Below are positions 28,617 to 54,980 of a stretch of 64,000 bases of DNA, piece after piece. Each line of letters starts with the position of its first letter. Position 1 is the first letter of the stretch. This DNA comes from Ruminiclostridium papyrosolvens DSM 2782 (GTDB taxonomy: Bacteria > Bacillota > Clostridia > Acetivibrionales > DSM-1351), in assembly GCF_029318685.1 (NCBI RefSeq), contig NZ_CP119677.1:1787501-1851500 (forward strand), written 5' to 3'. A program made the translations under genes and the position numbers. Below the pieces are notes generated by a model that did no database searches, had not been told where the DNA came from, and worked only from the letters and a program-made list of their open reading frames with translations.

Positions 28617-28658
28617 TAATATTGTATGCAGTTCAACGAAAGACAAAGGCGGGATAAT

Positions 28659-29135
28659 ATGGCTTTTATCAACGAAGTTAAAAAGATGTCGAACTCTATG
28701 TTAGACAAATATTACAAGCTCATACTCCTGATAGGGAAGAATGGGTCTGGGAAAACCAGCCTTATAAATGAATTGTGTGCTGCCAATACTTATAGTTACA
28801 TTAATCTGAATTTAGCATTATCCGAGAAATTAAAGGATGTACCTATAGGAGATAGATGCTATTGTGTTCAAGATTTTATTGATGAAATAATTAGGAACGC
28901 ATCTGGAGATTTTATTGTGTTGGACAATATTGAACTAATCTTCTCCAAGCATCTTCAATTAGAACCATTAGGTGTCTTGAAAAATATAGCAAAATACAGG
29001 AAAACAATTGTTGCTTGGCAAGGTAGCATAACGAATGGATATTTGACCTATGCCGAGCCTACACATGAGGATTATGTAAAATATAAAATGGATGAATTGG
29101 AATGTTTATATATAAATTTGGAGAGGGGTTTGTAA
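28659..29135 (+). CDS. brxF: BREX-3 P-loop protein BrxF
   Basis: This is a 158-residue small ATPase-like protein with Walker A LIGKNGSGKT (about residues 24-32) and a Walker B-like DFIVLDNIEL near residue 86. BrxF is specific to BREX type 3, where it opens the operon directly before brxC, exactly as here. Its role is not known in detail; BREX blocks phage replication without cutting DNA and methylates the host. The ATG at 28659 fits the AAAGGCGGG site; an upstream in-frame start at 28626 lacks one. It lies one base from brxC. Confidence 0.85.
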   Translation: MAFINEVKKMSNSMLDKYYKLILLIGKNGSGKTSLINELCAANTYSYINLNLALSEKLKDVPIGDRCYCVQDFIDEIIRNASGDFIVLDNIELIFSKHLQLEPLGVLKNIAKYRKTIVAWQGSITNGYLTYAEPTHEDYVKYKMDELECLYINLERGL

Positions 29136-29136
29136 G

Positions 29137-32100: not shown

Positions 32101-32805
32101 AATATTGATGAAGATTTTATAAGAGTATTTAATAGCGAATTATCAGGTTTGAAGGATGAGTATAGAAATGTCTATATGGAACTTCATAAAAAAAATAGGC
32201 TTGATTTGAATGGCGATAATGCAAAGAAAAAAATTATGCAGAGCAAAGAGCTTAATAATCTTAAGAAATTGACGGCTATAGAAGACATACTTCCTGTAGT
32301 TAAGCTAAATGGAATCACAGAAAAAATTTCAAGGCTTCGTACTTGCTATAACCTTACCCAGCAGGATATGGAAGGTAAATTTATGTGTCCGCACTGCCAA
32401 TTTAACCCTTCCGAGAATAATCAACCTGTTCATGGGGTAATTGACAGTGTAGAAGATGATATTGAGAAGATTTATAAGGAGTGGACCGAAATTATTGTTT
32501 CCAGCGTTGAGGATCCAATGGTTAAAGAGAATATTGGCTTCCTTAAAGCAGAGCAACAGAATGTGATTAGTAAACTGCTTGAAACAAGAAAACTTCCAGA
32601 CGTTATAGATGGCAACTTTGTATCTGGCGTAAACACTCTGATGAAAGGGCTGGAAAAAGTCGAAGTGCTTGTAGAGGATATGAAAAAAGCAATTTCAGGT
32701 GATGGTCCTGTTACTGTTGAGGATATTAGAGCAAGATTTGAAAAGTATGTCCGTGACTTGACGAAGGGCAAGGATGAAAGCAAAGTAAGAATCATATTGA
32801 AATAA
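29137..32805 (+). CDS. brxC: BREX-3 ATPase BrxC
   Basis: The 1222-residue ATPase is of the BrxC/PglY type, the large motor protein of BREX. Walker A VGNYGTGKSH is near residue 67 and Walker B YLIVVDELLDYLG near 172. A long, mostly helical C-terminal half follows, with one CPHCQF knuckle near residue 1083. The length matches BrxC proteins (about 1100-1300 residues). It is translated from an ATG two bases past brxF. BrxC is essential in studied BREX systems and is thought to help form the complex with PglX and PglZ. Confidence 0.9.
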   Translation: MKYSQLVQFDPIETVVKLKDADSKGEAERLVKTYVMSDSMADSLIGVVIPQLQFEQTVDNKGVFIVGNYGTGKSHLMSIVSTIAEDASLLDYIKHDKFREHAKSIAGKFEVLRFEIGASKMNLRDIIVRKLESDLKQRGIDYKFPPLEEVTDNKQYLVEMMGLFEEKYPDKGYLIVVDELLDYLGSRKELEIKLDLGFLREIGEVSKNTRIRFMAGVQETLFDNPGFSFVAKTILKVKDRFEQIIIRREDISFVVSQRLLQKNNEQKAWIREHLQKVSSMYKNMADRIEEYVNLYPIHPAFLETFEKVYIAEKREVLKTITLTIKEMLDSEVPNEEPGLVSYDAYWSYIKNSPSKRTETEVKDVIDKSGILEGIIQHSFTKPQYKPIALRIIYALSVHRLTTGNINAPLGITVQNMKDDLCIYDPLLPEKEEDFLITTIETIMREISNTVSGQFIEYNQENEQYYLDLKKDIDYGAKIQQKADLLDEDSLNEFYYKLINISMEWNAQEYITGFEIYEYDLIWEDKNVEREGYRFMGTPNGRSTAQPPRDFYIYFLPPYGTDNSAYIKNEDEVYFEFMCDAGFTNLLKMYSAAHKMASISSGDSKNSYLKKAEDYQKDAIKWIRQNINQCFIVSYRGESKTILSWLKGKRIGDKSLKEQVDMAAASCLDVWFNEQYPDYPKFYITVTHNNYNQLFKAAMDYIAGKKTDTGSKILDSLQLLDVENISPKNSVYAKYFIDLINHLPQGKVLNRSEIIERINEEVEYDKRFKLEPIWIALIMSSLVYNGDITLAAGGKNFDATMLKELAAENTMNLIEFKHCDRPKDVPVAVLKKLFEILGLPPGQIVNANTRDVAVASMLVKIDEYIDKALKATLFLNGDISVWGKPSMESYKVDNYKESIKEFKNFLDGLKIFNTQAKLKNFRHTEEEIDKQGAALRLLVDIDKIKDLKSKIEANTAYLSGAEIVLKDQSWIDKVNALKLKLETVLKNLDNIDEDFIRVFNSELSGLKDEYRNVYMELHKKNRLDLNGDNAKKKIMQSKELNNLKKLTAIEDILPVVKLNGITEKISRLRTCYNLTQQDMEGKFMCPHCQFNPSENNQPVHGVIDSVEDDIEKIYKEWTEIIVSSVEDPMVKENIGFLKAEQQNVISKLLETRKLPDVIDGNFVSGVNTLMKGLEKVEVLVEDMKKAISGDGPVTVEDIRARFEKYVRDLTKGKDESKVRIILK

Positions 32806-32818
32806 CGGAGGATAGGTC

Positions 32819-35371
32819 ATGGAGTTAAATAAAGAGACCTTGGATAAGGTAAGAAATATTGAGGGATTTCCTATTGGCAAGGATGAAGATATTATTAAGC
32901 TATCGGATCCACCGTATTATACGGCGTGTCCGAATCCATTTATAAATGAGTTTATTGAAAAGAGCGGAACACAATATGACGAAGAAAATGATAATTATAA
33001 TGTAGAGCCTTATACGGCTGATGTTTCCGAAGGTAAGAATGATCCAATTTATAACGCTCATTCCTATCATACAAAAGTTCCTCATAAAGCTATTATGAGG
33101 TATATTTTGCATTATACAAAGCCTGGTGATATTGTTTTTGATGGGTTTTGTGGAACGGGAATGACTGGTGTTGCCTCACAGATGTGCGGAAATCCTGATA
33201 GCCTGTTTAAATTAAGCATAGAACAAGATATGAAAAATATTAGATGGGGAGCAAGAAGAGCAATCCTAAATGATTTATCAGTAGCTGCAACATTTATTGC
33301 ATACAACTATAATAAACCACAGACTGCTGCTAAATTTAGTGCTGATTGTAGTGATTTAATTAGTGAAATTGAGAAAGAATGTCATTGGATGTACAAAACT
33401 AATCATATTATTGATGGTAGGCCGCAAATAGGAATCGATGGTCAAGTAATTAAAGGAAATATTAACTATACTGTATGGTCAGATGTTTACTTATGCCCTA
33501 ATTGTAACACGGAATTAGTATTTTGGAATGTTGCAGTAGATAAAGAAAATGGAGTTGTTAAAGAACATTTTAATTGTTGCCATTGCAATAAAGATTTAAC
33601 AAAAAAAGATCTTGAAAAGCTATGGATTACAAAATATGACAAAGCTATTAATGGGAAAGTTGTCCAGGCTAAACAAGCTCCAGTGCAAATTAATTATACT
33701 GTTGGCAAAAAGAGATATGATAAAGAACCTGATGAATATGATATACAATTGTTAAATAAGATAGACGAGATAGAAATTCCATATTGGTATCCTAATAATG
33801 TTCTTCCAGAGGGTTATAACACGGAGCAACCTAAAAAATCGCACGGTATTACTAATGTACATCATTTTTTTGTAAAACATAATTTGTATGTTTTGGCGAA
33901 AATATACAATGCATCAAAGAATAACCCACACATACTCTGTTTAATAGGTGATATGTTGCCAAGAGCAAGTAAAATGCACAAGATTGCTGTTAGTAGGCTT
34001 AACAGTAATCTATCTAAAACTGCTGGTATATTAACTGGAACATACTATATTCCATCGAATTCGATTGCGTATTCGCTTATTGAAATGTTAAAGTCAAGAG
34101 TTGCTGATGTAGAGAACTATATTAATAAAACAAACTATAATGATGATTGTATTATTAGTTGTCAATCAACAACATCTATGAGTAACATTAATGACAACAG
34201 TATTGATTATATTTTTACTGACCCGCCATTTGGAGAAAACTTGATGTATTCAGAGCTTAACTTTTTATGGGAAGCGTGGCTTAAAGTTTTCACAAATAAT
34301 AGACACGAAGCAATAATGAACAAAGTACAAAATAAAACACTCAATGAATACCAAGACCTTATGGAGAAGTGTTTTATGGAGAATTACAGAATACTCAAAC
34401 CAGGTAGATGGATGACTGTTGAATTTCATAACTCTCAAAACAGTGTTTGGAATGCTATACAGGAAGCAATTTTAAAGTCTGGTTTTGTTATCGCTAATGT
34501 TAAAACTTTAGACAAGAAACAAGGGAGTTTCAAGCAAGTCACAACTACTTCTGCTGTAAAACAGGACTTGATAATTTCGGCATATAAACCCAAGTCTTCT
34601 TTTGTTCATCGTTTTTTAATAGAAGCAGGTACAGAGGAAGGTGTGTGGGATTTTATTCGGGAGCATCTTTCTAAACTTCCAGTGGTAGTTGAATGTAGCG
34701 GAATGTTAGATACTATTCCAGAAAGACAAAATTATCTGCTTTACGATAGCATGGTTGCTTTCCATATCCAAAAAGGTGCAACAGTACCGTTAGGAGCCGC
34801 TGACTTTTACTTGGGATTAATACAAAGATTCCCAGAGAGGGATGGTATGTACTTCTTGCCTGGACAGGTAAGCATTTACGATGCCAAAAGAATTACTCAA
34901 GAGCTTAATGAGCAGATGTCATTGTTTGTTCTGGATGAAAAGACAGCGATACAGTGGCTTCATATAGAGCTTGCAACACCGCAAACATACCAGGACGTAC
35001 AACCTAAATTCCTGCAGGAATTGAAGCAGCTAAAATATGAAAAAATGCCAGAACTACGGGATCTGCTTGATGAGAATTTCCTGCAGGATGAACAAGGAAA
35101 ATGGTATGTACCTGACGTAAATAAACAGTCCGATCTTGAAAAATTAAGAGATAAAAAGCTCTTGAAAGAGTTCGACGAATACAGAAACAGCAAAGGAAAG
35201 CTCAAGTTATTCAGGATGGAAGCAATTAGAGCGGGTTTTAAACACTGCTGGAAGGAAAAGGACTATAAAACTATTGTTAATATTGGTGAAAGAATGCCAG
35301 AAGCCGTGGTACAAGAGGACCCGAGCATACTTATGTACTACGATAATGCTCGAACAAGAATAGGGGATTAA
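32819..35371 (+). CDS. pglX: BREX-3 DNA methyltransferase PglX
   Basis: The 850-residue methyltransferase has the SAM motif FDGFCGTGMTG near residue 107 and the catalytic motif TDPPFGENL near 467, in the order motif I then motif IV. A zinc ribbon (CPNCNTEL with CCHCNKDL, near 225-260) is inserted between them. It should methylate adenine on host DNA so that BREX spares it. PglX of type 3 differs from the longer type 1 enzyme, and the DPPF motif fits this form. The C-terminal 250 residues lie outside the catalytic core and may recognise DNA. The gene ends one base before the helicase start. Confidence 0.88.
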   Translation: MELNKETLDKVRNIEGFPIGKDEDIIKLSDPPYYTACPNPFINEFIEKSGTQYDEENDNYNVEPYTADVSEGKNDPIYNAHSYHTKVPHKAIMRYILHYTKPGDIVFDGFCGTGMTGVASQMCGNPDSLFKLSIEQDMKNIRWGARRAILNDLSVAATFIAYNYNKPQTAAKFSADCSDLISEIEKECHWMYKTNHIIDGRPQIGIDGQVIKGNINYTVWSDVYLCPNCNTELVFWNVAVDKENGVVKEHFNCCHCNKDLTKKDLEKLWITKYDKAINGKVVQAKQAPVQINYTVGKKRYDKEPDEYDIQLLNKIDEIEIPYWYPNNVLPEGYNTEQPKKSHGITNVHHFFVKHNLYVLAKIYNASKNNPHILCLIGDMLPRASKMHKIAVSRLNSNLSKTAGILTGTYYIPSNSIAYSLIEMLKSRVADVENYINKTNYNDDCIISCQSTTSMSNINDNSIDYIFTDPPFGENLMYSELNFLWEAWLKVFTNNRHEAIMNKVQNKTLNEYQDLMEKCFMENYRILKPGRWMTVEFHNSQNSVWNAIQEAILKSGFVIANVKTLDKKQGSFKQVTTTSAVKQDLIISAYKPKSSFVHRFLIEAGTEEGVWDFIREHLSKLPVVVECSGMLDTIPERQNYLLYDSMVAFHIQKGATVPLGAADFYLGLIQRFPERDGMYFLPGQVSIYDAKRITQELNEQMSLFVLDEKTAIQWLHIELATPQTYQDVQPKFLQELKQLKYEKMPELRDLLDENFLQDEQGKWYVPDVNKQSDLEKLRDKKLLKEFDEYRNSKGKLKLFRMEAIRAGFKHCWKEKDYKTIVNIGERMPEAVVQEDPSILMYYDNARTRIGD

Positions 35372-35372
35372 A

Positions 35373-38045
35373 ATGTTCAGTATTGGGGATTGGGTTTTAG
35401 ATAAAGAAAATAAGAAAACTGTTAAGGTTATTGAAAGCAATGACCTGTGGGGTTATAAGTCATACGCAGTGTTCGATCCTGGTGAGCAGAAGTCATATTT
35501 TTTATCGGAGGATAAGATTTGCAATGTGGATGCTGGAGAGGATTTCAGCATCCATTCTTTCAAATACCTTGTAACTTCGGCACGAATAAAAAATGAGCTT
35601 GCAAACGGTATACTGTCTTCTATTGGTGACAGCATAATACCATTGCCGCACCAGATTTATGCACTTAACAGAGCTTTATCGAGTAATAAAGTTCGATACA
35701 TTATTGCTGACGAGGTTGGTCTTGGGAAGACTATAGAAGCAGGCTTAATCATAAAAGAGCTTAAGACAAGAGGTCTAATAAACAGAGTTCTTATTGTCTG
35801 CCCCAAAGGTCTTATGACCCAATGGCATAATGAAATGAAGATGAAGTTTAATGAAAACTTCAATATTGTACTACCCGAAGACTTTGACTCCATTAAGAGG
35901 ATATATGGAGAAGGAAACATATGGGCAAATTTTTCGCAGGTCATATGTTCTCTTGACTCGATAAAACCTTTGGAACGCCGTAATGGCTGGAGCAAGGAGA
36001 AAATTGACGAGTACAATAAGGAAAGGCTCGGAAGCCTTATCTTTGCAGGTTGGGATATTATTATAATCGATGAAGCTCACAGAATTGGAGGCTCTACTTC
36101 TGATGTAGCAAGATATAAGCTGGGTAGTGCTTTAGCAGATGTAAGCCCATATCTACTTCTACTTACAGCCACACCGCATCAGGGAAAAACAGAACCTTTC
36201 TTAAGGTTGATCCGTCTTTTAGATCAAGATGCTTTCCCAGACAGCAATGCTATTGTCAAAGAGCAGGTAAGCCCCTATGTTATTAGGACAGAGAAAAGAG
36301 AAGCTGTGGACAGCGAGGGGAATCGGCTGTTTAAGAATAGGGTTACTAAAGCTGTAAATATTGAATGGGAACAGAGACATAGCCTTCAAAAGCAGCTCTA
36401 CGAGATGGTTACAAAATATGTGACAGAAGGCTATAACAAGGCAAGAAAGGAGAAAAAGAATTATATTGGCTTCCTTATGGTGCTGATGCAAAGGCTTGTT
36501 ACAAGCAGTACCAGAGCCATAAGAGAGAACTTGGAGAGAAGGCTTGAAATACTTCAAAACAGTTCAACCAGACTTGTAAACTTGAGCGAAGCCGATTTAA
36601 TGGAAGCAGATGCAGAAGAGACTGTTGAGGAACTGATCGCAGTCCAGTCCATTAATATGAAGAAAGAGATTGAAGAAATAAAAGATATGCTGGTGGTTGC
36701 CAATCAGGCAGAGTATCAGTATGTCGATACCAAAGCTGAAAAACTGCTGGAATTCATTTATAAGATACAGATGGAGTATGAAGATTTTAAAGTAATCATT
36801 TTTACTGAATTTGTAGCCACACAGCAGTTTTTAAAGGAGTATCTTGAAAGCAAAGGTTTTAAGATAGCGACTTTAAATGGTTCTATGGATATTGAAGAAA
36901 GAAATACAACCTTGAAAGAGTTCAAGGAAAGAGCAGACATACTTATTTCTACCGATGCTGGCGGAGAAGGTTTAAATTTGCAGTTTTCAAACATAGTAAT
37001 TAATTATGACCTGCCCTGGAATCCAATGAAAATAGAGCAGCGTATCGGTAGGGTGGACAGAATTGGGCAGCAGAGAGATGTATATGTATTTAACTTCATG
37101 CTTTCAGAAACGGTAGAATTCAGAATCAGAGAGGTTCTGGAAGAAAAGCTGGCCACTATTTTTGAGCAGTTCGGTGTGGATAAGATGGAAGATGTTCTTG
37201 ACTGTACCGACGCAGAGTTTGACTTTACAGACATCTTTGTAAGAGGCATTACCGATCCTAAAAATGCAGATTATTATATTGAAAAGTTAGAGAAGGAAGT
37301 AAGAGATAAAACAGAAAGAATTAATGAAATCAAAGGCTTGTTGCGGGACGAAAAAGTAATAGATAAGAGCTTGGTTGCAGGAATTAGTAACCTTCCCATA
37401 AAGAGCTGGCTGAAACAAATGTATAGTAATTTCCAATTGTCCCAGGGAAAAGAGGTAAATCTGATTGAGCTTGCCATGATAGATTTGAATAACCAGCAAG
37501 TAAAAAAGATGCTGAAAAATATGCCCGTATGGGCAAGAGGTCATAAAGTACCAGCCCTTGAGCTTGCAGGGGTATCTAACGAAAAAGGCTATTGGTCTTT
37601 ATGGGATGTAAGCATCAATGATAGTGACGTAAATAAACAGATATTCCCTTTGTTTGTCAATGAAAGCGGAGTTATGCGGGCAGCTTCTTCAAAAATATTG
37701 TGGGAAGCCTTTTTGAAGGAGAATGCAAATCCAGCGTTAAAGGGGTATAGGGAGTTTGAAGACACCACCTATACTATGCTTTGTGAAAAAGCCAAAGACT
37801 ATGCTTACAATCTGTTTGAGAATATGAGAGAAGGTTATTTAAACAAGCTGTCCAAAGAACAGGCAAAATATGAGTATGCTTTCAAACTGCGAAGAGAAGC
37901 GGCCCAGAGGATAGGACTTGAAAGCGTAAGAAGCTACAGAGCAAAGTCCATAGGCAAGGAAGAAGAAGCATGGCGATTTAAGATCGAAAAAGAAAAAGCG
38001 ATAATTCCAATTCTTAAACCTCTATGTATTGTATACCTGGAGTGA
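35373..38045 (+). CDS. brxHII: BREX-3 SNF2-type helicase BrxHII
   Basis: The 890-residue superfamily 2 helicase has motif I DEVGLGKTIEAG near residue 112, motif II DEAH near 231, motif III LLTATPHQGK, and the C-terminal motifs STDAGGEGLNLQF and RIGRVDRIGQ near 555. These mark the SNF2/RapA-like group. BrxHII is one of the defining parts of type 3 BREX and sits between pglX and pglZ in the known gene order, as here. Its task is probably DNA translocation in the defence complex. It overlaps the pglZ reading region slightly; the pglZ start follows the stop by four bases. Confidence 0.9.
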   Translation: MFSIGDWVLDKENKKTVKVIESNDLWGYKSYAVFDPGEQKSYFLSEDKICNVDAGEDFSIHSFKYLVTSARIKNELANGILSSIGDSIIPLPHQIYALNRALSSNKVRYIIADEVGLGKTIEAGLIIKELKTRGLINRVLIVCPKGLMTQWHNEMKMKFNENFNIVLPEDFDSIKRIYGEGNIWANFSQVICSLDSIKPLERRNGWSKEKIDEYNKERLGSLIFAGWDIIIIDEAHRIGGSTSDVARYKLGSALADVSPYLLLLTATPHQGKTEPFLRLIRLLDQDAFPDSNAIVKEQVSPYVIRTEKREAVDSEGNRLFKNRVTKAVNIEWEQRHSLQKQLYEMVTKYVTEGYNKARKEKKNYIGFLMVLMQRLVTSSTRAIRENLERRLEILQNSSTRLVNLSEADLMEADAEETVEELIAVQSINMKKEIEEIKDMLVVANQAEYQYVDTKAEKLLEFIYKIQMEYEDFKVIIFTEFVATQQFLKEYLESKGFKIATLNGSMDIEERNTTLKEFKERADILISTDAGGEGLNLQFSNIVINYDLPWNPMKIEQRIGRVDRIGQQRDVYVFNFMLSETVEFRIREVLEEKLATIFEQFGVDKMEDVLDCTDAEFDFTDIFVRGITDPKNADYYIEKLEKEVRDKTERINEIKGLLRDEKVIDKSLVAGISNLPIKSWLKQMYSNFQLSQGKEVNLIELAMIDLNNQQVKKMLKNMPVWARGHKVPALELAGVSNEKGYWSLWDVSINDSDVNKQIFPLFVNESGVMRAASSKILWEAFLKENANPALKGYREFEDTTYTMLCEKAKDYAYNLFENMREGYLNKLSKEQAKYEYAFKLRREAAQRIGLESVRSYRAKSIGKEEEAWRFKIEKEKAIIPILKPLCIVYLE

Positions 38046-38049
38046 TTGC

Positions 38050-39990
38050 ATGATTAATGAAATTATTTTAGAAAAGCTATATCTAAAAGAAAATGAATTT
38101 ATTCTGGTCTTTGATCCTGATAACCTACTTGGTGCGGAGGCTATTGTAGAGCATGTAAACCAGGCTGGGTTTTCTATTGTCAATTATGAGGACCCAGAGG
38201 TCTTTCGGTATTATTATGAGGAGAATATCCGCAGTTTTCTGGATCGGGGAAAACCTCTTGATAATAAGGTTCTGATAAGGTATACAGTGGAACAGTCTAT
38301 CCCTTATGATATAAGGGCTAAATGCTTCTTTGTTGAAGTAACCTTGCGGGAGCTGTTCCCTAAATTGAGCTATACCGTAATAAAAGAGCTTTACAGTGAG
38401 GTGTTTGACAAACTGTATAAGGTATACTCACGATATAGCGGACCGATTTTGGGAGACAAAGGAACAAAAGATTTTATATTGAAAAATGCGTATGGTGTAA
38501 TACCAGAGGTTATTGCCGATTTTCAAGAGTTGGTTAAGACCTTTATTCCGCTATATTATAGAGGGGAAGAGCTGCCTCGACTAATTGCAGATTATGCAGC
38601 AGAAGCTATAAGTAGTAATGGTCAGCTTAAACAATATCCAGTTAAGACTATAGTGAGTGGTAAGGTGTCCTGTTTCCACTTTATTCAGGAACAGTGGGAA
38701 CTGTATATCAGGAAAACAAATGGAGAAGCTGTTGAAACAGTTATTGATTTCGGAAATTACGAGATTAGAGCGTATATAGATAATCTTTTCCAGGAAAACT
38801 ATTTGACTCCAGTAAAACAGCTTAAGCTACGGGAATACCCTACCTGGATGCAATCAGGTGTTGTATATGATATAGCAGGAAATATAGAACGCAAGTTTGA
38901 TAACTATATTGATAAAATTATAAATAATGTCCAGAGTGTAAAATCGTATAAAGACTGGTTCGGTATTGCGGCCTTGTGGGCGGAAGTTCTTACGCTTAAA
39001 TACGATCAGAGCAAAAGTTACTCACTTGATAACAAAAAATTCAAAGACACTGGCAGTTTACTAAAAGAATGCTTTAAGGATTGGCTGCTTGCAAACTACA
39101 ATATGCTGGCATCGTTGTCATATGCTAAAGCTCCAGTAATGGTTCATAAAATACCCTGGCACATAAATCACCGTTTTCCCAAACAGGAAAATAAAAAGGT
39201 TGCTCTGCTTGTTATCGATGGAATGTCGCTGGACGATTGGTTTGTTATTAAAGAAGCTATAAATGAAAACAATAAATACATATTTGAAGAGACCCTATGT
39301 TTTGCATGGATTCCCACTATGACATCAGTATCCAGGCAAGCAATATTTTCAGGAGAGATACCTACAAATTATGCAGATACTCTTTTGTCTACCAACCACG
39401 ACGATAAACAGTGGAAGAAATTCTGGCGTAATATCGGCTATAATAATAACAGTGTTGCATTTAAGCGTAATATAAAAGAGTTCAGGGAAGACGGACTTGA
39501 CGATATTTTGAATGATAACGGGCTACGGGTATTGGGATTGGTAGTAAATATGGTAGATGATATTATGCATGGCCAGCAGCTTTCAATTGAAGGTATGCAC
39601 CAGGATATAAGATTATGGGCAAATAAAGGTAGCCTTGTAAGGTTTATTGATAGGCTGTATTCAAAAGACTTTGAAGTTTTTATAACTTCTGATCATGGTA
39701 ATATCGGTGCTGTTGGACAAGGAACCCTCCAAGAAGGGTTAGCTGTCGAAAGCCCAGGGGAAAGAGTACGCTTCTATAATAGTGATATAAATTGTGATAC
39801 AATTATGTCGAAATATAAGGCACTAAAGTGGGAAGCATCAGGGTTGCCTAAAAAATATAATTATGTTGTGTCGGAAGAAAATCTGGCGTTTGTAAAAGAA
39901 GGAAAGAAGATTGTTGCTCATGGAGGCTTGGCTATAGAAGAAGTAATTGTACCATTTATACATATGAGAAAGGAAAATCAGAATGCTTGA
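38050..39990 (+). CDS. pglZ: BREX-3 phosphatase-fold protein PglZ
   Basis: The 646-residue protein is of the alkaline phosphatase superfamily. The metal-binding segments are LLVIDGMSLDDW near residue 388, PTMTSVSRQAIFSG near 421 with the nucleophile-position Thr/Ser, TSDHGN near 546, and a final HGGLAIEEVIVPF. This layout is the PglZ domain. PglZ is the one protein shared by all BREX types; it binds metals and may act on nucleic acids. The ATG at 38050 follows GGAG with seven bases between; the longer frame from 38029 starts inside brxHII. Confidence 0.92.
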   Translation: MINEIILEKLYLKENEFILVFDPDNLLGAEAIVEHVNQAGFSIVNYEDPEVFRYYYEENIRSFLDRGKPLDNKVLIRYTVEQSIPYDIRAKCFFVEVTLRELFPKLSYTVIKELYSEVFDKLYKVYSRYSGPILGDKGTKDFILKNAYGVIPEVIADFQELVKTFIPLYYRGEELPRLIADYAAEAISSNGQLKQYPVKTIVSGKVSCFHFIQEQWELYIRKTNGEAVETVIDFGNYEIRAYIDNLFQENYLTPVKQLKLREYPTWMQSGVVYDIAGNIERKFDNYIDKIINNVQSVKSYKDWFGIAALWAEVLTLKYDQSKSYSLDNKKFKDTGSLLKECFKDWLLANYNMLASLSYAKAPVMVHKIPWHINHRFPKQENKKVALLVIDGMSLDDWFVIKEAINENNKYIFEETLCFAWIPTMTSVSRQAIFSGEIPTNYADTLLSTNHDDKQWKKFWRNIGYNNNSVAFKRNIKEFREDGLDDILNDNGLRVLGLVVNMVDDIMHGQQLSIEGMHQDIRLWANKGSLVRFIDRLYSKDFEVFITSDHGNIGAVGQGTLQEGLAVESPGERVRFYNSDINCDTIMSKYKALKWEASGLPKKYNYVVSEENLAFVKEGKKIVAHGGLAIEEVIVPFIHMRKENQNA

Positions 39991-40690
39991 TAGGATTGGT
40001 TTTGATAGAGTTGTAAAGTTGAATTGGCTTAATAAAACAGTGGAAATTTATAATCAGGAAAAAGATTTTAAAAAGGTAAAGTTAGATCTTGACTATTACT
40101 TAAGGGACGATGTTGGCGGCGATAATAGAAGAAAGACAATAAACATACTTATAAGGACATGGGTAAACGTTGATCCAGTACATGTGGCAATTAGAGACAA
40201 AGCTCTCGACCTCTTTAAAATGGCTGATGCAAATGAGAGAATTGCTATTCAGTGGTCTATGCTGCTATTGGCATATCCTATTTTTGATAACTTAACTGCT
40301 GTTGCGGGTAAGCTGCTTAATTTACAGGACGAATTTTTATTAAGCATGGTAAGAAGAAGAATCTATGAGCTGTGGGGCGAGCGTTCCACGCTTCAATATG
40401 CCATAGATAAGATGATACGCTCACAAATTGACTGGGGAGTTCTTTCAGATGGAGAAAAGCCAGGAGAATATAAGCGGATACAACCATTGGAGATCAAAAA
40501 TAAGGAAGTGAAATTACTTTTGATTGAAGCATACCTTCTTGCTTCAGGGAAGCCTCATCTCCAATTTGTTGAGGTTAATAAGCTGGATGAATTGTTTCCT
40601 TTTAAGTTGGATATAGGGTTAGACGATTTTCATACAGTTGACAAGTTTAAACTTAACAAAATGGGTGGGGAAGTTGTTATTGGGCTATAA
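39983..40690 (+). CDS. brxA: Probable BrxA, last gene of the BREX-3 operon
   Basis: This is a 235-residue, mostly helical basic protein whose start overlaps the end of pglZ by eight bases. The middle reads DANERIAIQWSMLLLAYPIFDN and MVRRRIYELWGERSTLQYAIDKMIRS, which suits the DNA-binding BrxA (DUF1819) fold of two winged-helix-like parts. In type 3 BREX, brxA follows pglZ, so position and size agree. The sequence match itself was judged by eye and is weaker than for the other five genes. It ends 23 bases before a convergent gene. Confidence 0.7.
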   Translation: MLDRIGFDRVVKLNWLNKTVEIYNQEKDFKKVKLDLDYYLRDDVGGDNRRKTINILIRTWVNVDPVHVAIRDKALDLFKMADANERIAIQWSMLLLAYPIFDNLTAVAGKLLNLQDEFLLSMVRRRIYELWGERSTLQYAIDKMIRSQIDWGVLSDGEKPGEYKRIQPLEIKNKEVKLLLIEAYLLASGKPHLQFVEVNKLDELFPFKLDIGLDDFHTVDKFKLNKMGGEVVIGL

Positions 40691-41645: not shown

Positions 41646-44600
41646 ATGCAGCATCTTTCCGCCAGGTTAGCCTGGCATGATAACGGTTGGAATGGTCATT
41701 TGTGTAAGGAGCCAAAAAAGAATATATATTGTTCAGGAAGGTACTCTTTTCCTGGAGATATGATTGGAGAATATAAAGATGTGGATTTGGAGGAGGGAAA
41801 TAATTGTAAAAACTGCAACAGTATAGATTTTATTCCTCCCTGCTGCTACAGCATTAATGCTTTTGGAAAAGAAAGCGTAGAGTGTTATGCAACTCCGCCT
41901 GAATTTTTTAGGGACGACACTGAAGAAAAACATTGGGAGCTGCCGCCTGCATCAGTATGTACCTGGTGCTATGAGGAGATGTATAAAGATGAGGTAAAGC
42001 TAAATGGGAAGTATTATGATCCTAAAAAGAGAAGTCAGGCTATGGAAGAATACTATTCCCAGTTTGAAAAAGATAAATCCTTAATATTCTACTATACAAA
42101 CTATGATAATCCTTTTAGCGGGGAAGAGAAAAAGTATGTTCTTGTTGGCGTTTCAAGGCTCAAAGAAATCCTCCCCACTCTGAAGTGGGAAAACCAGGGC
42201 GATGAATCCTACGAAAAGTATGGAAACCTTGTTTGGGCAAGGGTTGTTCAGTCCACATATCCAGATGAAGGTTTTAGGATACCCTATGAAAATTACATGG
42301 ACAACGAGGAAGTCCTTTCCAAGCTGGTATTCACACCAGAGAACTCAAGAAATTTCAAGTATGCTACAAGAGCCTTCGGAGACGATGATGCTTTAGAGCT
42401 TATTGAAAGGCTGATAGAGGTTGTAAACTACTTGAGCGAGCTTGATGACAAAACAGAGGATTGGGGCATTCGACTAAACTGGCTGTCTTCAATCATGGCA
42501 GAACTATGGGGAAATAGAGGGATTTACCCAGGAATAAACAGTGTAGCAGATTATTTGGGTGGAAGCAGGCTTATCCCACTAATTAAGAAAGAACTGGACA
42601 AGGGAACTTCGGAAGAAACCATATATAAAGAAGTTAATAAACTCTTTGAAGGGGACGCTACCTCTATTTTTGTCGCCAAACTTGATAGTGACTACATAAA
42701 AAAGCTGCAAAAACAATGGAAGTATAAAGAGGATATTGAGCAAGAGCTTTTAGCCAATGTATTTCCAAGGTTTGCTTTAACTTCCCAGCAGATTTCAAAA
42801 ATATTAGATGAGGAGCGTAGCAAGAACGGGATATACTCAAGTCTCGAAGACATAGCGGAAAATCCGTATATAATTTGTGAAGAATATATTGGGGATGAAC
42901 CAGATGATACAATATCATTTTCCAAGATAGATCACGGTATATTCCCAAGCCCAGACTTTGGGGTGGAAGCATTGATGGACACTGATGATGCAAGGCGATT
43001 AAGGGCATTGCTCGTAGACGCTTTGAAAAAGACGGCACAGCATTCATTTGTTAATGCTAAAGTGCTATTAGGTACAATTAACAGGAAACTCGAATATATG
43101 CCTGACTGGAAAAAGGCCAAATTCACTCAAAAATACATAGAGGTTGAAGAAGATGTTCTGGATAAGCAACTTGAACTTAAACGGAAAGATAAAGAAATCT
43201 ACATTTATTTGAAGGAAATATATAAGCTGGAAGACGTTATCGGGTCTGCAGTCAAAGAACTTGCTGCAAGGCCAAATTTAAAACTTAAATATCCTGTTGC
43301 AGAGAAAGACTGGGAGAATTATATATATAAAAAGGACAGTATCATTGAAAAGCGTGATCCCGCAAAATATCGGAAGATTGTTGATGATCGGATAGAAATG
43401 TGCAAAAGGATATTTCAGAAACCGATATGTGTCATCACGGGAGAGGCTGGTACAGGAAAAACTACTATTGTTAATGCCATAATTAATGCGGTTGAGAAAT
43501 CAACAGGGGAGGGAACCACATTTCAACTACTTGCTCCTACGGGAAAGGCTGCAGAGCGGTTAAGGCTTGCCACAGGGAAAAATGCTGCTACCATTCACTC
43601 ATTCCTCGTGCAAAGGGGTTGGATGAATGACAACTTTACCTTTAAAAGAGAAGGTGGAGTGGCGGACGAGACCAAAAAGACAATTATCATTGATGAATGT
43701 TCGATGTTGGATACTGTTATACTGGGAACCCTTTTCAAAAGCATTAACTTCAACTGTGTCCAGAGGATCATTTTTGTAGGGGATCATAACCAATTGCCAC
43801 CAATAGGCACGGGAAAGCCTTTTGCAGAGATAATTGACTATCTTAAGAAATACTATCCCGATTATATAGGTATTCTGACACCAAATATTAGACTTATTGA
43901 AGAAGGCGGAATATCTCTGGAGCTTGCACAGATATTTACTGAAAACGGAAATGAAAATGAAGAAGGAATACTTCAGAAGCTGCAGTATGGTGGGGAAATT
44001 GATAAGGATTTAAAGGTTATATTCTGGAAGAATGAAAGTGAGCTTAAAGAGAAAGTTGTAAGCGAAATTATAAGCAAAGTAAGAAAGGATGGGGAGGAAA
44101 CAGAGGAGACAGTCAGGTACACCTTTGACAGGCTTTTCGAGAACCAAAAGAGTAAATTCGACCGTAATCCTGACAACTTCCAAATAATTTCACCATATAG
44201 GAACGAAGAGTATGGCACGGAATCCGTAAACCAACTTATGCAGCAAACCTTTAACAACTATAATTATGAGAAACATGGGAAACTTGGTGGAGTCACTTAC
44301 TTCGATAAAATTATTCAGTATATCAACAGACCCAAATCCTACCCATATTATGCCTATAATTTCAGCAGCAGGCAAGTGGAAAGGTTGGAAGTCTATAATG
44401 GAGAAATTGGCTTTATGGTTCCTCATGCGGCGGATAAACTGTGGAGTAAGCCATTTTTCAGATTGTCCAAGTTCCAGGCAAAGTTTAAGGGAAAAGAGAC
44501 CTTTGGCATTGAGTTCAATTCCGATAATATGGTGACGGAGAATGTTGAGCTGGCGTATGCTATATCCGTCCATAAAGCTCAAGGCTCGGATTTTGATAAT

Positions 44601-45182
44601 GTTTACTTTATACTGCCCAAGAAGAAATCCAGATTGCTCTCAAAAGAACTTTTTTATACGGGCATTACAAGGGCGAAAAAGCATACTACTCTATTTATAG
44701 AGGATGATATTGGAGCTTTGTTGAGCTTGAGGCGTAAAGAAGCATCAGAAGTATCAAAAATAAATTCTTCTATTATGGAATTTAACCCAATCCCCGAAGA
44801 GCTTCTCAATATAAACGAGTGGTATGAGGAAGGGAAAATTCATAGAACTCTGGCCGATTTCATGGTACGGTCGAAATCGGAGGTAATAATTTCCAATATG
44901 CTTTTTGAAGAAAACATACCATTTTGGTATGAGAAACCCTTGTATGCTGATGACGGAACTATGTATTTGCCTGACTTTACTATTGAATACAACGGACAGA
45001 CCTGGTACTGGGAGCATCTTGGTTTTAAAGGTAATAAAGGTTACGACCAGCATTGGAACAAGAAGGAAAAATGGTATAAGAATAATGGCTTCTTCGACAA
45101 CCTGATCGTTTCTGATGAGCAAACTGGGGCAGATACAGTTAGTTGGAAACAAACCCTTTACAAGAAACTCGGGAAAGCGTGA
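41646..45182 (+). CDS. RecD-like helicase with N-terminal Cys-rich and C-terminal nuclease-like domains
   Basis: This is a 1178-residue multi-domain protein. The N-terminus (LSARLAWHDNGWNGHLC, then cysteines through residue 75) is an uncharacterised Cys-rich module found on such helicases. The superfamily 1 helicase core has Walker A ITGEAGTGKTT near 597, IIIDECSMLD near 680, VGDHNQLPPIG near 710 and ISVHKAQGSDFD near 970. The tail (about 1070-1178) has RSKSEVIISNML, LPDFTIEY and WYWEHLGF, which resembles a PD-(D/E)xK nuclease. AAGGAGAAGCAGCT precedes the ATG. It is followed closely by a GIY-YIG gene and a zinc-ribbon gene. A DNA-processing defence role is inferred from context. Confidence 0.82.
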   Translation: MQHLSARLAWHDNGWNGHLCKEPKKNIYCSGRYSFPGDMIGEYKDVDLEEGNNCKNCNSIDFIPPCCYSINAFGKESVECYATPPEFFRDDTEEKHWELPPASVCTWCYEEMYKDEVKLNGKYYDPKKRSQAMEEYYSQFEKDKSLIFYYTNYDNPFSGEEKKYVLVGVSRLKEILPTLKWENQGDESYEKYGNLVWARVVQSTYPDEGFRIPYENYMDNEEVLSKLVFTPENSRNFKYATRAFGDDDALELIERLIEVVNYLSELDDKTEDWGIRLNWLSSIMAELWGNRGIYPGINSVADYLGGSRLIPLIKKELDKGTSEETIYKEVNKLFEGDATSIFVAKLDSDYIKKLQKQWKYKEDIEQELLANVFPRFALTSQQISKILDEERSKNGIYSSLEDIAENPYIICEEYIGDEPDDTISFSKIDHGIFPSPDFGVEALMDTDDARRLRALLVDALKKTAQHSFVNAKVLLGTINRKLEYMPDWKKAKFTQKYIEVEEDVLDKQLELKRKDKEIYIYLKEIYKLEDVIGSAVKELAARPNLKLKYPVAEKDWENYIYKKDSIIEKRDPAKYRKIVDDRIEMCKRIFQKPICVITGEAGTGKTTIVNAIINAVEKSTGEGTTFQLLAPTGKAAERLRLATGKNAATIHSFLVQRGWMNDNFTFKREGGVADETKKTIIIDECSMLDTVILGTLFKSINFNCVQRIIFVGDHNQLPPIGTGKPFAEIIDYLKKYYPDYIGILTPNIRLIEEGGISLELAQIFTENGNENEEGILQKLQYGGEIDKDLKVIFWKNESELKEKVVSEIISKVRKDGEETEETVRYTFDRLFENQKSKFDRNPDNFQIISPYRNEEYGTESVNQLMQQTFNNYNYEKHGKLGGVTYFDKIIQYINRPKSYPYYAYNFSSRQVERLEVYNGEIGFMVPHAADKLWSKPFFRLSKFQAKFKGKETFGIEFNSDNMVTENVELAYAISVHKAQGSDFDNVYFILPKKKSRLLSKELFYTGITRAKKHTTLFIEDDIGALLSLRRKEASEVSKINSSIMEFNPIPEELLNINEWYEEGKIHRTLADFMVRSKSEVIISNMLFEENIPFWYEKPLYADDGTMYLPDFTIEYNGQTWYWEHLGFKGNKGYDQHWNKKEKWYKNNGFFDNLIVSDEQTGADTVSWKQTLYKKLGKA

Positions 45183-50733: not shown

Positions 50734-51420
50734 TCAATCCAGTTCCAAATATTGTTTAATCTCCTCTGTTGTGATATCCTTCAATTCATTCTGTCCGATA
50801 ATTCCTCGGATTTTTTCACATATCGAATCAATGTATTTAGGGACCCCGCCAGAAGCAGAATGTATGAGGTCTATGTGCTTAACCAAAATATCAATTGTAT
50901 GTTGCGGGTAGCATTGAGCTGCCATTTTAAACAGGGTATAATTTTGGGTTTCCTCTTGATCAAAAGGCTCCAAAATACGTATGTTGGATTCATTTACTAT
51001 GTTTTTTATCTTTTCCTTTAATTCATTTCTGCCCAAAAGAACCAGCGAAACATTGCTCTGAACAATTTTAACAGTGCTTATGAACTGGTGGATCTGTTGT
51101 ATTACTTCTTCTTCATATAAATGGCAATCGTCAATAATTAAGGCAACATGTATTCTACCTTTTTCTGCCTCTTTTAAAGTATTTAAAAAATCCTGCTCCA
51201 AACCAGCAATATTGTCTGATGTTTTAAAGTTTAGATTATTTACGACTTCTTCCAATACTTCCTCATAACTGTCATGTTTGCCATGCAAATGTACTGTCGT
51301 ACCACCTAAATCCAATACTTTACTTTTAAACATTTCGGCAGTCATTGTTTTTCCGATTCCTTCTACACCAATAATCGCACGTGTACCTTCTCCCCAAATT
51401 TGATACCACTTATTATTCAT
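50734..51420 (-). CDS. ExeA/TniB-like AAA ATPase
   Basis: The 228-residue AAA+ ATPase has Walker A IIGVEGIGKTMTAE near residue 18, Walker B HVALIIDDCHLYEEE near 93, a sensor-like VSLVLLGRNEL near 127, and a late segment SASGGVPKYIDSICEKIRG like the sensor 2 region of ExeA/TniB-type ATPases. Such proteins serve in transposition (TniB/TnsC-like), secretion or plasmid processes. No transposase is beside it. A GGGAGG site precedes the ATG. It heads a three-gene minus-strand operon and is divergent from rep, which suggests a part in element maintenance. Confidence 0.75.
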   Translation of the reverse strand: MNNKWYQIWGEGTRAIIGVEGIGKTMTAEMFKSKVLDLGGTTVHLHGKHDSYEEVLEEVVNNLNFKTSDNIAGLEQDFLNTLKEAEKGRIHVALIIDDCHLYEEEVIQQIHQFISTVKIVQSNVSLVLLGRNELKEKIKNIVNESNIRILEPFDQEETQNYTLFKMAAQCYPQHTIDILVKHIDLIHSASGGVPKYIDSICEKIRGIIGQNELKDITTEEIKQYLELD

Positions 51421-51902
51421 AGTCTACATCCTCCCAATATTATAATTTTTGTAAGAGCTGTCAGCATAGATAATAATTGTTTTCATTTCCAGTCATCTCA
51501 CCTCCCTTATTTTCAAAGAAAAATCTGTCACTTACTTATAATCCATATGGTTATAAGAAAATTCAGAATAACACGGAATAATTCGATATTTTCTCATTTA
51601 AAACGAATGGAGCAATTTGCACACCTGATTCTGCAAATTGCTCCAAATAAATATCTACTATTCTGTTTTTCTATAGTTATAGTATATCATTCATATTATT
51701 TTTTCTCAACATGATTTCAAATCTCAATAGTAAAATTTGATTTTGGTAGAACTAATGTTCTAAAATGTATGGTAAAAGTACACATATTCATAACGTCAAT
51801 TCAGAATTAGCATCTGCTATCGTGGTTCACCTGATAACAAAAAGAAGATACATAATCAGGTTGAAACCCCTGGTTATGAAACAGATAGGGGGTCGATAGC
51901 GT
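51421..51902. other. Divergent region between the ATPase operon and rep
   Basis: It holds a perfect 13-base inverted repeat (51609-51644), a second hairpin (about 51852-51877) and an iteron-like half site GGTCGATAGC (51891-51900) right before the rep start. No gene is seen. Confidence 0.5.
51609..51644. repeat. Perfect 13-base inverted repeat
   Basis: GGAGCAATTTGCA and TGCAAATTGCTCC are exact reverse complements ten bases apart. It may be an operator for the divergent genes or a structured element of the replicon. Confidence 0.75.
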
Positions 51903-53696
51903 ATGATTGAACAAAATGAAAAAGGATTATATCAATTTAACGACAGACAAATTGAAGAACAGGCGAGAAAACAGCAGGATTTCCTGCGGATTATTCATCC
52001 GTTCTTGAACGAAACCGACATAATGAGACAAGAATGTGTAGAATTGAGACCACTGCCACGGCAAAAGGATATAAAATATATCAGGTCATTAAATCTTTGG
52101 AGGTTGGATCAAAGGGGACTGGAAAGGCATATTGAGTTTCTTAAAGGGCTAAACGGAATTCCTGCGTGCTTGTATTACTCCGTATATGCTTATGATTACA
52201 GCAAGGAAACCTACAGAAAGGACGGCAAACCATATGCCAAAGGGAAGATAAACAATCAAAATGCCCGCTTTACTTCTATTGCCATTTGCGATCTGGACAA
52301 AATATCCGAGGAGCGGCATAGCGATGTTGTTGGTATGTTTGAGAACTGCGGCATAGCACCACTGACGGTTTTCAGTGGCCACGGATTTCAGGATATCGTG
52401 CTTCTCAATGAACGAGTGTATGACATTGAATTACTCAAGAGGTTTAATTATATTCTCAAATTAAAGGGATTTCCCATTGACGAGACCATAGTGGACCCCG
52501 CCCGAATTATGAGAATGCCTTTCTCATTCAACTGCAAAGCCTTTTGCCAGGAGGATAAATACCATGATGCAGAAAGTCCTGTGGCTATTCCCACAAAGCT
52601 GGTAAGGTTTACTGATAAAAGATATTCCGTGGAGGAGGTGTTTGACAGGCTTAATACTCTTCCCGACATAAAAAACGATTTCAGCATACAGGTTAATATG
52701 CCAGAGAAAGAGCAGGAAAACATACCTACAAAGGACGCTGTAGCAAAGGAAGCAGAACCCATTGAAGCTCCAATAAGGGTATTCCAGGAATTGAGTGAGG
52801 AACAGGTTGAGGAACTATCCAGCATATATAATATAATACGGTTCAAAGAGCTGCCTGACGCAGTACAAAGAATGCTCTATGGCACCAGGGAAGGCTTCAG
52901 AAACAAAACCCTTATATTCCTGACTATGTTTTTTGCAAACAAGCTGGGATTACCGCTCCCAAAGATAATCCAATCCCTTGTCATCTGGGGGGCAAGGTGT
53001 AATCCAATGCTTGACGAGGAATATATTATTGCCAATGTCACCAGGATTTACAGGCGTAAGTTTAAGGGAAATGGCAAGTATGACAGTCAAATGGTCAAGG
53101 AGTTTGGATATATTGATTTCAAAATGTATCGGAGGGACAACAAAATTTTGTTCAACAATGAATTCTTTGATATGTTCCACCTATTGTCAGACGGGGCTGT
53201 GAGGGTATATCTTGCTGCAAAACTCTACGAAAAGATGACTGGGGAAAAGCTCTGGACAATTGACCGCCTGGTTGAGTTAACGGGGTATAGTGCCAGAACT
53301 CTGTACAGGCATTTACAGCAGCTTACAGACTACAGTTTGGTAGATAAAAAACGGTGCTGCAGGCCAAAGGGTGAACAATACAGGTATTGCATAAATAAAT
53401 TCTTCGATGTAACAAAAGGTTTCCTTTCCTTTGAAACAGCAACATTGGAATACCTGCTTAAACAAGGGCTATTGACTGATGGGGAATTGAAACTCTATAT
53501 ATATCTCTGCCAGAAGATAAACCAGTCAACAGGCAATGAATGCTGGTTAAGCCAAAAGAGCTTGGGAAAGGATATTGCAAAAAAGCGGAATTCGATCTCC
53601 GAAATGACCACTTCTCTGCATAAAAAAGGACTTATTAAAAAGACAGCAGAAAGCTACGGCAAGATAACTTACTGCTATTATTCACTTATCTATTAG
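51903..53696 (+). CDS. Rep protein with primase-like motifs and winged-helix tail
   Basis: The 597-residue protein is probably the replication initiator of an integrated plasmid-like element. Three motifs in the order of archaeo-eukaryotic-type primases are seen: AICDLDK near residue 126 (DxD), FSGHGFQDIVLL near 156, and DPARIMRMPFSFNCK near 198. The third resembles the D..R..R.P...N.K motif of plasmid primases. The C-terminal half has two winged-helix-like segments (LTGYSARTLYRHLQQL near 462 and LSQKSLGKDIAKKRNSISEMT near 550). Iteron-like repeats lie just downstream. Family identity is by motif only; activity is inference. Confidence 0.72.
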   Translation: MIEQNEKGLYQFNDRQIEEQARKQQDFLRIIHPFLNETDIMRQECVELRPLPRQKDIKYIRSLNLWRLDQRGLERHIEFLKGLNGIPACLYYSVYAYDYSKETYRKDGKPYAKGKINNQNARFTSIAICDLDKISEERHSDVVGMFENCGIAPLTVFSGHGFQDIVLLNERVYDIELLKRFNYILKLKGFPIDETIVDPARIMRMPFSFNCKAFCQEDKYHDAESPVAIPTKLVRFTDKRYSVEEVFDRLNTLPDIKNDFSIQVNMPEKEQENIPTKDAVAKEAEPIEAPIRVFQELSEEQVEELSSIYNIIRFKELPDAVQRMLYGTREGFRNKTLIFLTMFFANKLGLPLPKIIQSLVIWGARCNPMLDEEYIIANVTRIYRRKFKGNGKYDSQMVKEFGYIDFKMYRRDNKILFNNEFFDMFHLLSDGAVRVYLAAKLYEKMTGEKLWTIDRLVELTGYSARTLYRHLQQLTDYSLVDKKRCCRPKGEQYRYCINKFFDVTKGFLSFETATLEYLLKQGLLTDGELKLYIYLCQKINQSTGNECWLSQKSLGKDIAKKRNSISEMTTSLHKKGLIKKTAESYGKITYCYYSLIY

Positions 53697-53727: not shown

Positions 53728-53787
53728 AAATAGCAGATATGGATACGCTGTATCAATTATTCCCAGCATAGTACACTTGTTGGGCCT

Positions 53788-54663
53788 AAATGACAGCTAT
53801 CGACTATCCTTTGTGCCCTGAAACTGGCTTGGTTAGCGGGATGTTTTCCCTAAATGCCAACTACCGACACTATTAATAAATACAGGGAGAGAAGGAGAAG
53901 GGGGGCTTTTTCAGTACCAGTCAAATTAAAAAAACGGAAGCAGTAAATCTTTGTATTCCGATATAAGAGAGCATATCCTATTACCATGTCGGTTGCTGTC
54001 CATTAAACAAATGGTACAGTTCTTTTCCCAGCATAAAAGGATTATCGTCTCTTTACTACGTCGATACGTGTCAATTAAGGAAATAGGTTATATATTTCGG
54101 GCTATGCTCTAATGACAACTACCGACTCCATCTTGCAGGCTGAATGCCTTACTATACAGCCGTTGTATTTCATAATTGCCAGCTACCGACACTATTAATA
54201 AATACAGGAGAGGAGGGAGAGAGAGGGGCTTCACTGCTCGGAGCATATAATGGGCAACAGAAATTACATACAACTTGATGTAGGGAGCAGTTGAAGTCTA
54301 TAGAGTTACATTATGGGAGTGAGCCAAAGATAAGTACCTTCGGTGAATAATCCAAACGGAACAAAGCCTGCATTCTTCCGTTACGAATAATTGTTGCTTT
54401 GCCGATTTTTTTACTCTTCATCCAGAGAACCGAAATAAGGGATTAACCTTTATACCGATAGCTGTTCTTATGTCGGAAAAGCCCGTCCTACTGGCTAAAA
54501 AAATACATGTGTTTTGATCCGTTGCCGTTTCCATATGCTATAAATGACAGGGATGTTTTTGTTTCAAAAATCTTGAAAACTACACTATGACTGCTGTTAA
54601 AGACACAATTTCTACACTTTTGATAAGCAAAATGAAATAACCTCCCCCTGTCGATAGTTGGCA
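53788..54663. repeat. Iteron-like repeats, candidate replication origin
   Basis: At least eight copies of a motif close to TGMCAGCTAYCGAC are present. Plus strand: 53791, 53855, 54113 and 54177. Minus strand: 53987-54002, 54060-54073, 54456-54469 and 54648-54663. The copies at 53855 and 54177 extend over 50 bases with ACTATTAATAAATACAGG and a purine-rich G/A tract. The region is gene-free and lies between rep and an XRE regulator. This is the typical make-up of an iteron-controlled origin. Confidence 0.7.
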
Positions 54664-54770
54664 ATTATTAAAAAGAGAGTGTGGTATGTGAATTGTGATA
54701 AGTAAAAATTGACTTTTACTATAAGAATTAGTTACCATAAGAATAGAACATTACGATTGGAGGCGATGTT

Positions 54771-54980
54771 ATGATGCAATGTTGCGAAAAATATAACGGA
54801 GACAAAATCCGACTTGAGCGTGCCCGCTGCGGTTTAAGTATGTCGGAGCTTGCTAAAGCAGCTGATATACATCTTAAAACTGTGGAACGGATTGAAAAAG
54901 GCAAAACAGTGCCGAGAGTGCAGACCCTGGGGCGTATTGCCAAATCTCTAAACAGGGAACTGGAATACTTCCTGGCTTAA
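54771..54980 (+). CDS. XRE-family transcriptional regulator
   Basis: This is a 69-residue single helix-turn-helix protein. The XRE fold covers IRLERARCGLSMSELAKAAD, then LKTVERIEKGKTVPRVQTLGRIAKSL, with the recognition helix near residues 33-45. The ATG has GGAGGCGATGTT before it. It follows the iteron region and precedes a hairpin-rich stretch. A role in copy-number or transfer control of the element is likely from context. A short form with no second domain fits a repressor. Confidence 0.85.
   Translation: MMQCCEKYNGDKIRLERARCGLSMSELAKAADIHLKTVERIEKGKTVPRVQTLGRIAKSLNRELEYFLA

Follow-up and report, generated by a model that had tools for sequence, protein, structure and literature searches.

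Does a cluster of repeated sites on both strands, placed between a gene for a primase-like Rep protein and one for a small regulator, mark an origin of replication within a bacterial chromosome, and if it does, what would it replicate? The window analysed here is a stretch of 64,000 nt (positions 1787501–1851500 of a one-contig, 5.03-Mb chromosome); coordinates above 64000 continue its numbering into the adjoining chromosome (stretches L011–L014 and L065). The locus probably serves a 63.5-kb integrative element at rnpB as its replication module, with a divergent Rep distantly related to RepA of plasmid pCD6 and with twin sites just past rep (unit A) as the origin.

The region between the rep stop (53696) and the start of an XRE regulator gene (54771) contains seven copies of the asymmetric 18-nt motif TAAWTGMCARCTAYCGAC with 0–2 mismatches, the plus strand carrying four and the minus strand three. 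The 14-mer TGNCANCTAYCGAC occurs exactly five times in the window (53791, 53855, 54113 and 54177 on the plus strand, 54650 on the minus strand) and inexactly at 54060 (one mismatch) and 53988 (two mismatches), both on the minus strand; inclusion of the flanking TAAW gives the 18-nt motif. The motif scan places the sites at 53787–53804 (iteron 1, +, TAAATGACAGCTATCGAC), 53851–53868 (iteron 2, +, TAAATGCCAACTACCGAC), 53988–54005 (iteron 3, −, TAATGGACAGCAACCGAC, two mismatches), 54060–54077 (iteron 4, −, TAATTGACACGTATCGAC, two mismatches), 54109–54126 (iteron 5, +, CTAATGACAACTACCGAC, two mismatches), 54173–54190 (iteron 6, +, TAATTGCCAGCTACCGAC) and 54650–54667 (iteron 7, −, TAATTGCCAACTATCGAC, about 100 bp ahead of the XRE gene). 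Iterons 1 and 2 lie 64 bp apart in unit A (53787–53909, +), the proposed origin, which begins about 90 nt past the rep stop. Iterons 5 and 6 show the same 64-bp spacing in a second twin block, unit B (54109–54227, +), shifted by 322 bp from unit A. The initial annotation had described two near-identical blocks of 50 bases; the repetition is real, and the repeated blocks measure 64 nt at 80% identity. It had also reported a half site overlapping the start of rep. That half site, CTATCGAC, is present on the minus strand at 51892–51899, between the ribosome-binding region and the start of rep, and ends 3 nt ahead of the ATG (51903); 12 of the 18 motif positions match over 51892–51909. It is a plausible candidate site for auto-repression of rep.

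Between 53697 and 54770, the pattern with up to two mismatches finds seven sites, where 300 dinucleotide shuffles yield 0.09 on average and 2 at most; the pattern had been fitted to these very sites. De novo searches of the same interval (100 shuffles each) gave eight sites for a 14-mer with 3 mismatches (shuffle mean 3.5, maximum 5), eight for an 18-mer with 5 mismatches (mean 3.35, maximum 5) and ten for an 18-mer with 6 mismatches (mean 6.6, maximum 10, equalled in one of 100 shuffles). The cluster on both strands proposed by the initial annotation is confirmed, and its copies exceed the number expected from shuffled sequence; its figure of eight or more sites is better read as seven, because the de novo eight consist of six of the seven motif sites and two weak ones (54542+ and 54457−), with 53988 absent. 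Over the whole window the count at 3 mismatches is ordinary (57 sites against 50.4, with 17 of 100 shuffles getting as high) whereas the local count is not, so the signal is the cluster itself: repeated asymmetric sites beside rep, beyond chance, as in iteron replicons. Elsewhere in the genome there are three more exact 14-mers, at 678515, 3174893 and 3937644; they depart from the 18-mer at 2, 3 and 3 positions, respectively, and the weakest members of the cluster are no better than the first. No second site was found in the 701-bp stretches around them, and since each stands alone they were treated as chance occurrences. A scan for the paired-site pattern in 391 genomes of the class returned three matches, all in this genome (backward control, 0), and none in viral contigs; as the pattern was built from these sites, the scan speaks for specificity, not function. 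Two features weigh against replication from this locus: a perfect DnaA box is lacking, and the AT content of 40-mers peaks at 54685–54744, away from the site pairs. An RNA element was considered and rejected, as the predicted folding of the paired units, with DNA parameters, does not surpass that of shuffled sequence on either strand (z 0.2 to 1.5) and the only three Rfam matches fall far under the gathering scores of their families.

The rep gene (51903–53696, +) encodes a protein of 597 aa with an AEP primase-like half, a PriCT-like middle and two winged helices. Comparison with the RepA family alignment A5, the first row of which is pCD6 RepA, gave an hhalign probability of 97.6 (E 3e-12 for one comparison) over Rep residues 113–579, spanning the primase motifs, the PriCT-like region and both winged helices at 24% identity. 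Searches with tblastn against plasmids and phages found nothing at E 1e-5, which counts against a replicon, and the link to pCD6 RepA is therefore a distant one. Close relatives of Rep were absent from the genome-contig and viral-contig collections, as were matches of A2 and A3 in viral contigs and of the L047 and L082 proteins in phages. Pfam detects only helix-turn-helix domains in Rep (HTH_36, E 2e-12, two stretches) and no AEP or PriCT domain, another point against, and residues 1–333 weakly match phrog_4861 'DNA primase' (E 1.9e-4).

Genome searches with Rep brought up, in a Clostridiaceae MAG and in two Lutispora species, proteins related to its C-terminal part, as well as a fused AEP-plus-winged-helix relative in G362. 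L047 in G150, found next with a profile search, is 45% identical to pCD6 RepA and matches proteins of plasmids from Sarcina (54%), Terrisporobacter (48.5%) and Paraclostridium (24%) and of a second Clostridioides plasmid (23%). Among five relatives, weak matches to PriCT_1 (E 8.6e-5), AEP-TOTE and RepB_primase were each found in one member; L037 and L046 match the polymerase/primase phrog_695, and L037 also matches a Deinococcus RepB-primase protein. The domain order of Rep fits the AEP, PriCT-1 and HTH arrangement described within one protein for RepE/RepS and PrimHYQ (PMC5862659, accessible part), with PriCT_1 itself detected in one of the five relatives and not in the window protein. The layout, which the initial annotation had not recognised, is accordingly a known one, colinear with pCD6 RepA, and the relatives include plasmid replication proteins rather than only the chromosomal non-replication genes that it had allowed for. 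Rep appears to belong, as a divergent member, to the initiators that combine an AEP primase, PriCT-1 and winged helices, and pCD6 RepA is a distant relative. Of the proposed 'candidate new replicon', the plasmid-type replicon is well supported by the RepA homology, by RepE54-like winged helices and by a repeat pair in nine of 12 tested relatives; 'new' applies only in the sense of a divergent member whose repeat layout is unusual and which lies inside an integrated element.

A first hint of that repeat pair came from the repeat tables of pCD6, pTPDSL2 and a P. sordellii plasmid, in which pairs 67–79 bp apart lie right after rep. Fourteen near-complete records were tested and counted as 13 (12 relatives and the window), L086 giving the same result as L085. 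Left out were L088 (cut), L092–L122 (partial matches), nine pCD6-like records of equal match score and a 4675-bp plasmid (H14/H16). Within 260 nt past rep (or, in Terrisporobacter, within the 249 nt that the record provides), nine of the 13 records have a significant pair at p 0.005, the least possible value with 200 shuffles. In the window the spacing is 64 bp and the position +89 (p 0.005 in 200 shuffles, 0.0033 in 300). Spacings and positions in the plasmids are 79 bp at +61 (pCD6), 69 at +47 (Terrisporobacter), 67 at +96 (P. sordellii) and 81 at +67 (Sarcina), and in the others 79 at +75 (G150), 77 at +73 (L089), 77 at +54 (L090) and 68 at +41 (L091). In the upstream control none of the 14 records fell below p 0.05.

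Widening the interval to 360 nt, a choice made after the first result and to that extent unfavourable to the case for a replicon, added only L084 (79 bp at +243), for 10 of 13 records. Also unfavourable are the three records lacking a significant pair at 360 nt, G362 (p 0.14), L085 (p 0.13) and L087 (p 0.60). In the ten positive records, the downstream score of the record is not reached by any of the 204 control windows; the fair count is 0 of 178 in eight records, because the pCD6 and Sarcina scores come from a tandem array after the pair, and the pairs of these two rest on the 260-nt test. Scores of at least 12 occur in 8 of 204 control windows of the positive records and in 7 of 90 of the other three, again a point against; the window pair scores only 12.5, and none of its own 30 controls reaches 12. 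Three family members and the window pair were already known before the test. Five of the nine other records were positive at first and six after widening, and as L089 and L090 are near-copies (96%), this amounts to four or five of eight among previously unseen records. The repeat sequences differ from member to member, and what is common is the position and the spacing (64–81 bp). Since a repeat pair follows rep in 10 of the 13 records, the first pair in the window, unit A, is judged from these comparisons to be the most likely origin. In the accessible open-access literature, which does not cover the original pCD6 paper, we found no description of the pCD6 origin core or of a repeat pair after rep.

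Like pCD6 (Clostridioides difficile, NC_005326.1) and its Terrisporobacter, Sarcina and Paraclostridium plasmid relatives, the window combines colinear homology over most of Rep (AEP-like half, PriCT-like region, two winged helices) with a direct-repeat pair just past rep, 79 bp apart in pCD6 and 64 bp in the window. It differs from pCD6 in its repeat sequence and protein (24% identity in the profile alignment), in having three paired blocks and inverted copies, and in being chromosomally integrated, while pCD6 has a 35-bp × 7 tandem array after the pair. Among the pCD6-like records H3–H12, lengths of 6655, 6760, 6795, 6830, 6865 and 6935 are multiples of 35 bp apart (6618 does not fit), in keeping with the 35-bp array after repA, which probably varies in copy number. 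RepE54-type iteron initiators share the two winged helices, with fold similarity to the Rep model, and bind an asymmetric site of similar length, but they have no primase half, and their short-period tandem array contrasts with pairs 64 bp apart on both strands in the window. The Inc18 or PriCT_1 replicons (pAMbeta1 RepE, pIP501 RepR, pSM19035) resemble the locus by description: they have a PriCT_1 initiator, an origin right downstream of rep and a small XRE protein, Cop, and the RepE monomer of pAMbeta1 binds one 25-bp site directly downstream of repE, as against twin sites in the window (PMC5703833, accessible part).

The third paired block (L011:4304–4490, or 68304–68490) lies outside the window, 14.6 kb downstream. 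Its sites at 68366 and 68430 (L011:4366 and 4430) have 0 and 4 mismatches and are again 64 bp apart, and beside them is a minus-strand site with 3 mismatches. Over 123 bp it can be aligned with unit A (69%, E 5.6e-4, against 0.0067 for the top match among ten further genomes of the genus), and it is situated directly after a second small XRE gene (L011:3949–4284), ahead of a very short ORF. No rep adjoins it, which does not favour a replicon.

With a small XRE gene beside both clusters (54771–54980, +, 69 aa, HTH_3 E 1.6e-12, and L011:3949–4284; 31% identity over 59 aa), one of the clusters lacking rep, and a half site at the rep start, the sites might instead be operators through which XRE regulators control rep and nearby genes, with no origin at all. 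This explanation is unlikely. The 18-mer is asymmetric, whereas XRE dimers usually bind palindromes, and twin repeats also follow rep on pCD6 and on Sarcina p10, whose few annotated genes (from an incomplete gene table) name no HTH regulator. If the locus is a replication module, the XRE protein encoded at 54771–54980 is possibly a Cop-like repressor and may act like Cop of the Inc18 plasmids, where it is encoded upstream of rep (PMC5703833, accessible part).

The primase half of Rep deserves closer inspection. Its AEP-like motifs (52275–52547, +; definitions from the accessible part of PMC5862659) comprise DLD at residues 130–132, SGHGFQ at 158–163, and a stretch with D193, VDPARIMRMP (197–206), N210 and K212. 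Motif I (hhhDhD) is present as AICDLDK, with D130 and D132 invariant in alignment A4. Motif II (sxH) is not, the histidine being replaced by glutamine in SGHGFQ, which argues against a working replicon; the same change has been described for PolpTN2-like and RepB'-like AEPs (PMC5862659, accessible part). A clear motif III (hD/E) does not stand out, a further point against; D193 and D198 precede R204, and relatives carry glutamine (STQILRVP), as reported for RepE/RepS in the same source. A PriCT-1-like helical region (approximately residues 316–400; 52848–53102, +) aligns with the same region of the RepA family, and the two winged helices (residues 412–595; 53136–53687, +; block pLDDT 58–93) are the proposed iteron binder.

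Structure models of Rep have a mean pLDDT of 47.5 (first) and 52.5 (second), and the AEP half is badly modelled, another point against; strands at 125–130, 153–157 and 162–168 are predicted with low confidence. Of the 50 Foldseek matches listed, 36 are crystals of RepE54, RepE or other Rep–DNA complexes (E 9e-4 to 0.02), many of them of one protein. SarS ranks first, only two of the listed matches fall below E 0.001, and no AEP is named among the 50, the AEP half being weakly modelled. The match is taken to be to the winged-helix part of Rep because most of the remaining model is poor.

A replicon that is genuine in origin and no longer initiates replication would account for the motif II substitution, the lack of close relatives and the location of the element in the chromosome. 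This is somewhat less probable still than control by XRE operators, given the open frame of 597 aa, the seven conserved sites and the repeated blocks, and the primase and polymerase activity reported for PolpTN2, which has the same motif II glutamine (PMC5862659, accessible part).

The replication module is part of an element inserted at the 3' end of rnpB, the RNase P RNA gene (22282–22635, +; Rfam RF00010, 275.7 bits). A 23-bp repeat at that end (attL, 22611–22633, +) has an exact second copy at 86102–86124, and in genome G005 the end of rnpB runs straight into sequence matching 86102–86158 (89% over 57 positions); the exact repeats and this empty site define an element of about 63.5 kb. As expected of an integrative element, it also encodes a tyrosine recombinase near attL (22981–23886, +; phrog_1 integrase, E 6.9e-54), with further ones close to the other end (85047–85955) and at 74169–75092. 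Sixteen bp of the att sequence recur as an inverted copy at 22687–22702, 54 bp inside the left end, possibly as part of a recombinase core site. Beyond attR, nearly all of 86125–99023 is missing at this place in G006 and G007, and the conserved flank resumes at 99023. It is very improbable that the repeated sites are accessory sites of a recombinase or transposase: the element has three tyrosine recombinases, and an AAA ATPase divergent from rep (50734–51420, −; AAA_22, E 4.7e-10) weakly matches phrog_296 'DNA transposition protein' (E 4.2e-4), but the distance to the nearer end of the element is about 31 kb for one cluster and 18 kb for the other, and their placement relative to rep is that seen in the family plasmids.

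The cargo includes a BREX operon (28626–40690, +; BrxF, BrxC, PglXI, a BrxHI/HII-type helicase, PglZ and BrxA by PADLOC models), which we take to be of type III. PADLOC lists more defence candidates at 24758–28033 and 41646–45182 (proteins matching PDC-S06 and PDC-S68, and an AAA ATPase whose matches are scattered), and two divergent TIR genes with ThsB_TIR matches (L011:4814–6096) are Thoeris-like. Relaxase, type IV secretion and conjugation genes were not recognised in the ORF lists of the element, part of which were HMM-scanned. Rep occurs in none of ten other genomes of the genus, which tells against a replicon. Related AEP genes in bacterial genomes are nearly always found in integrated elements with direct-repeat borders (PMC5862659, accessible part). 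SGI1-type elements are likewise integrated islands with plasmid-like replication, in a different host group and at a different insertion site (PMC7433901 and PMC7826253, accessible parts).

From these observations we infer the following course of events. After excision of the element, a Rep monomer would use its pair of winged helices to bind each of the asymmetric 18-bp sites. In unit A, the twin sites 64 bp apart and 90 nt past the rep stop would form the origin; as 64 bp is close to six helical turns, two Rep molecules could sit on one face of the DNA. Rep would then melt neighbouring DNA, and the first primer could be made by Rep itself, or the DNA be opened for a host transcript to act as primer. 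Rep of ColE2 makes the first primer itself. In pAMbeta1, the RepE replicon is reported to use a host transcript (PMC5703833, accessible part). The half site, the inverted copies and the distant third block (unit C) may limit initiation, rep expression or copy number by auto-repression or by Rep-mediated pairing.

A broader proposal can be offered only tentatively, and we regard it as rather doubtful. Twin direct repeats 64–81 bp apart downstream of rep might be the conserved origin core of pCD6-type AEP-PriCT-winged-helix initiators, and the defence island, carrying three such cores, one of them 14.6 kb away, might pair them through Rep, together with the small XRE regulators, so that it replicates once excised and its BREX and Thoeris-like genes increase in dosage. 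The repeat pair common to distant members is in any case a precise and testable origin candidate, and placing a pCD6-type replicon in a mobile anti-phage island suggests possible extrachromosomal copying of the island. Plasmids based on the pCD6 replicon serve in several clostridia and acetogens (PMC8351756, accessible part).

Some observations concern elements that encode related winged-helix proteins. Nine and about five iterons of sequence CACAGTATAMGTGCCA are found at L035:8518–8869 and L050:12972–13153, 2.0–2.4 kb past rep and behind an RNase H gene; no such cluster was seen in L. saccharofermentans. A core TTGnCAnnTAT shared with these Lutispora and Clostridiaceae element iterons was considered and rejected, as a PWM test, in which two of the five L050 rows were misaligned by one base, gave no support: column shuffles reached the score in 158 of 5000 cases for L035, 2794 of 5000 for L050 and 488 of 5000 combined, a result adverse to the replicon, and for L035 the opposite orientation aligned best. 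A related Rep in Lutispora saccharofermentans and G362 lies near an apparent rlmH and a large serine recombinase, both identified by eye (L049:6618–10552; L037:741–1220 and 9308–14981). The arrangement recalls the SCC elements of staphylococci, which sit at rlmH. An ORF at L049:19333–20277 combines an N-terminal RNase H with a C-terminal ParB_N match below the curated cut-off, and similar ORFs were noticed by eye in L035 and L036.
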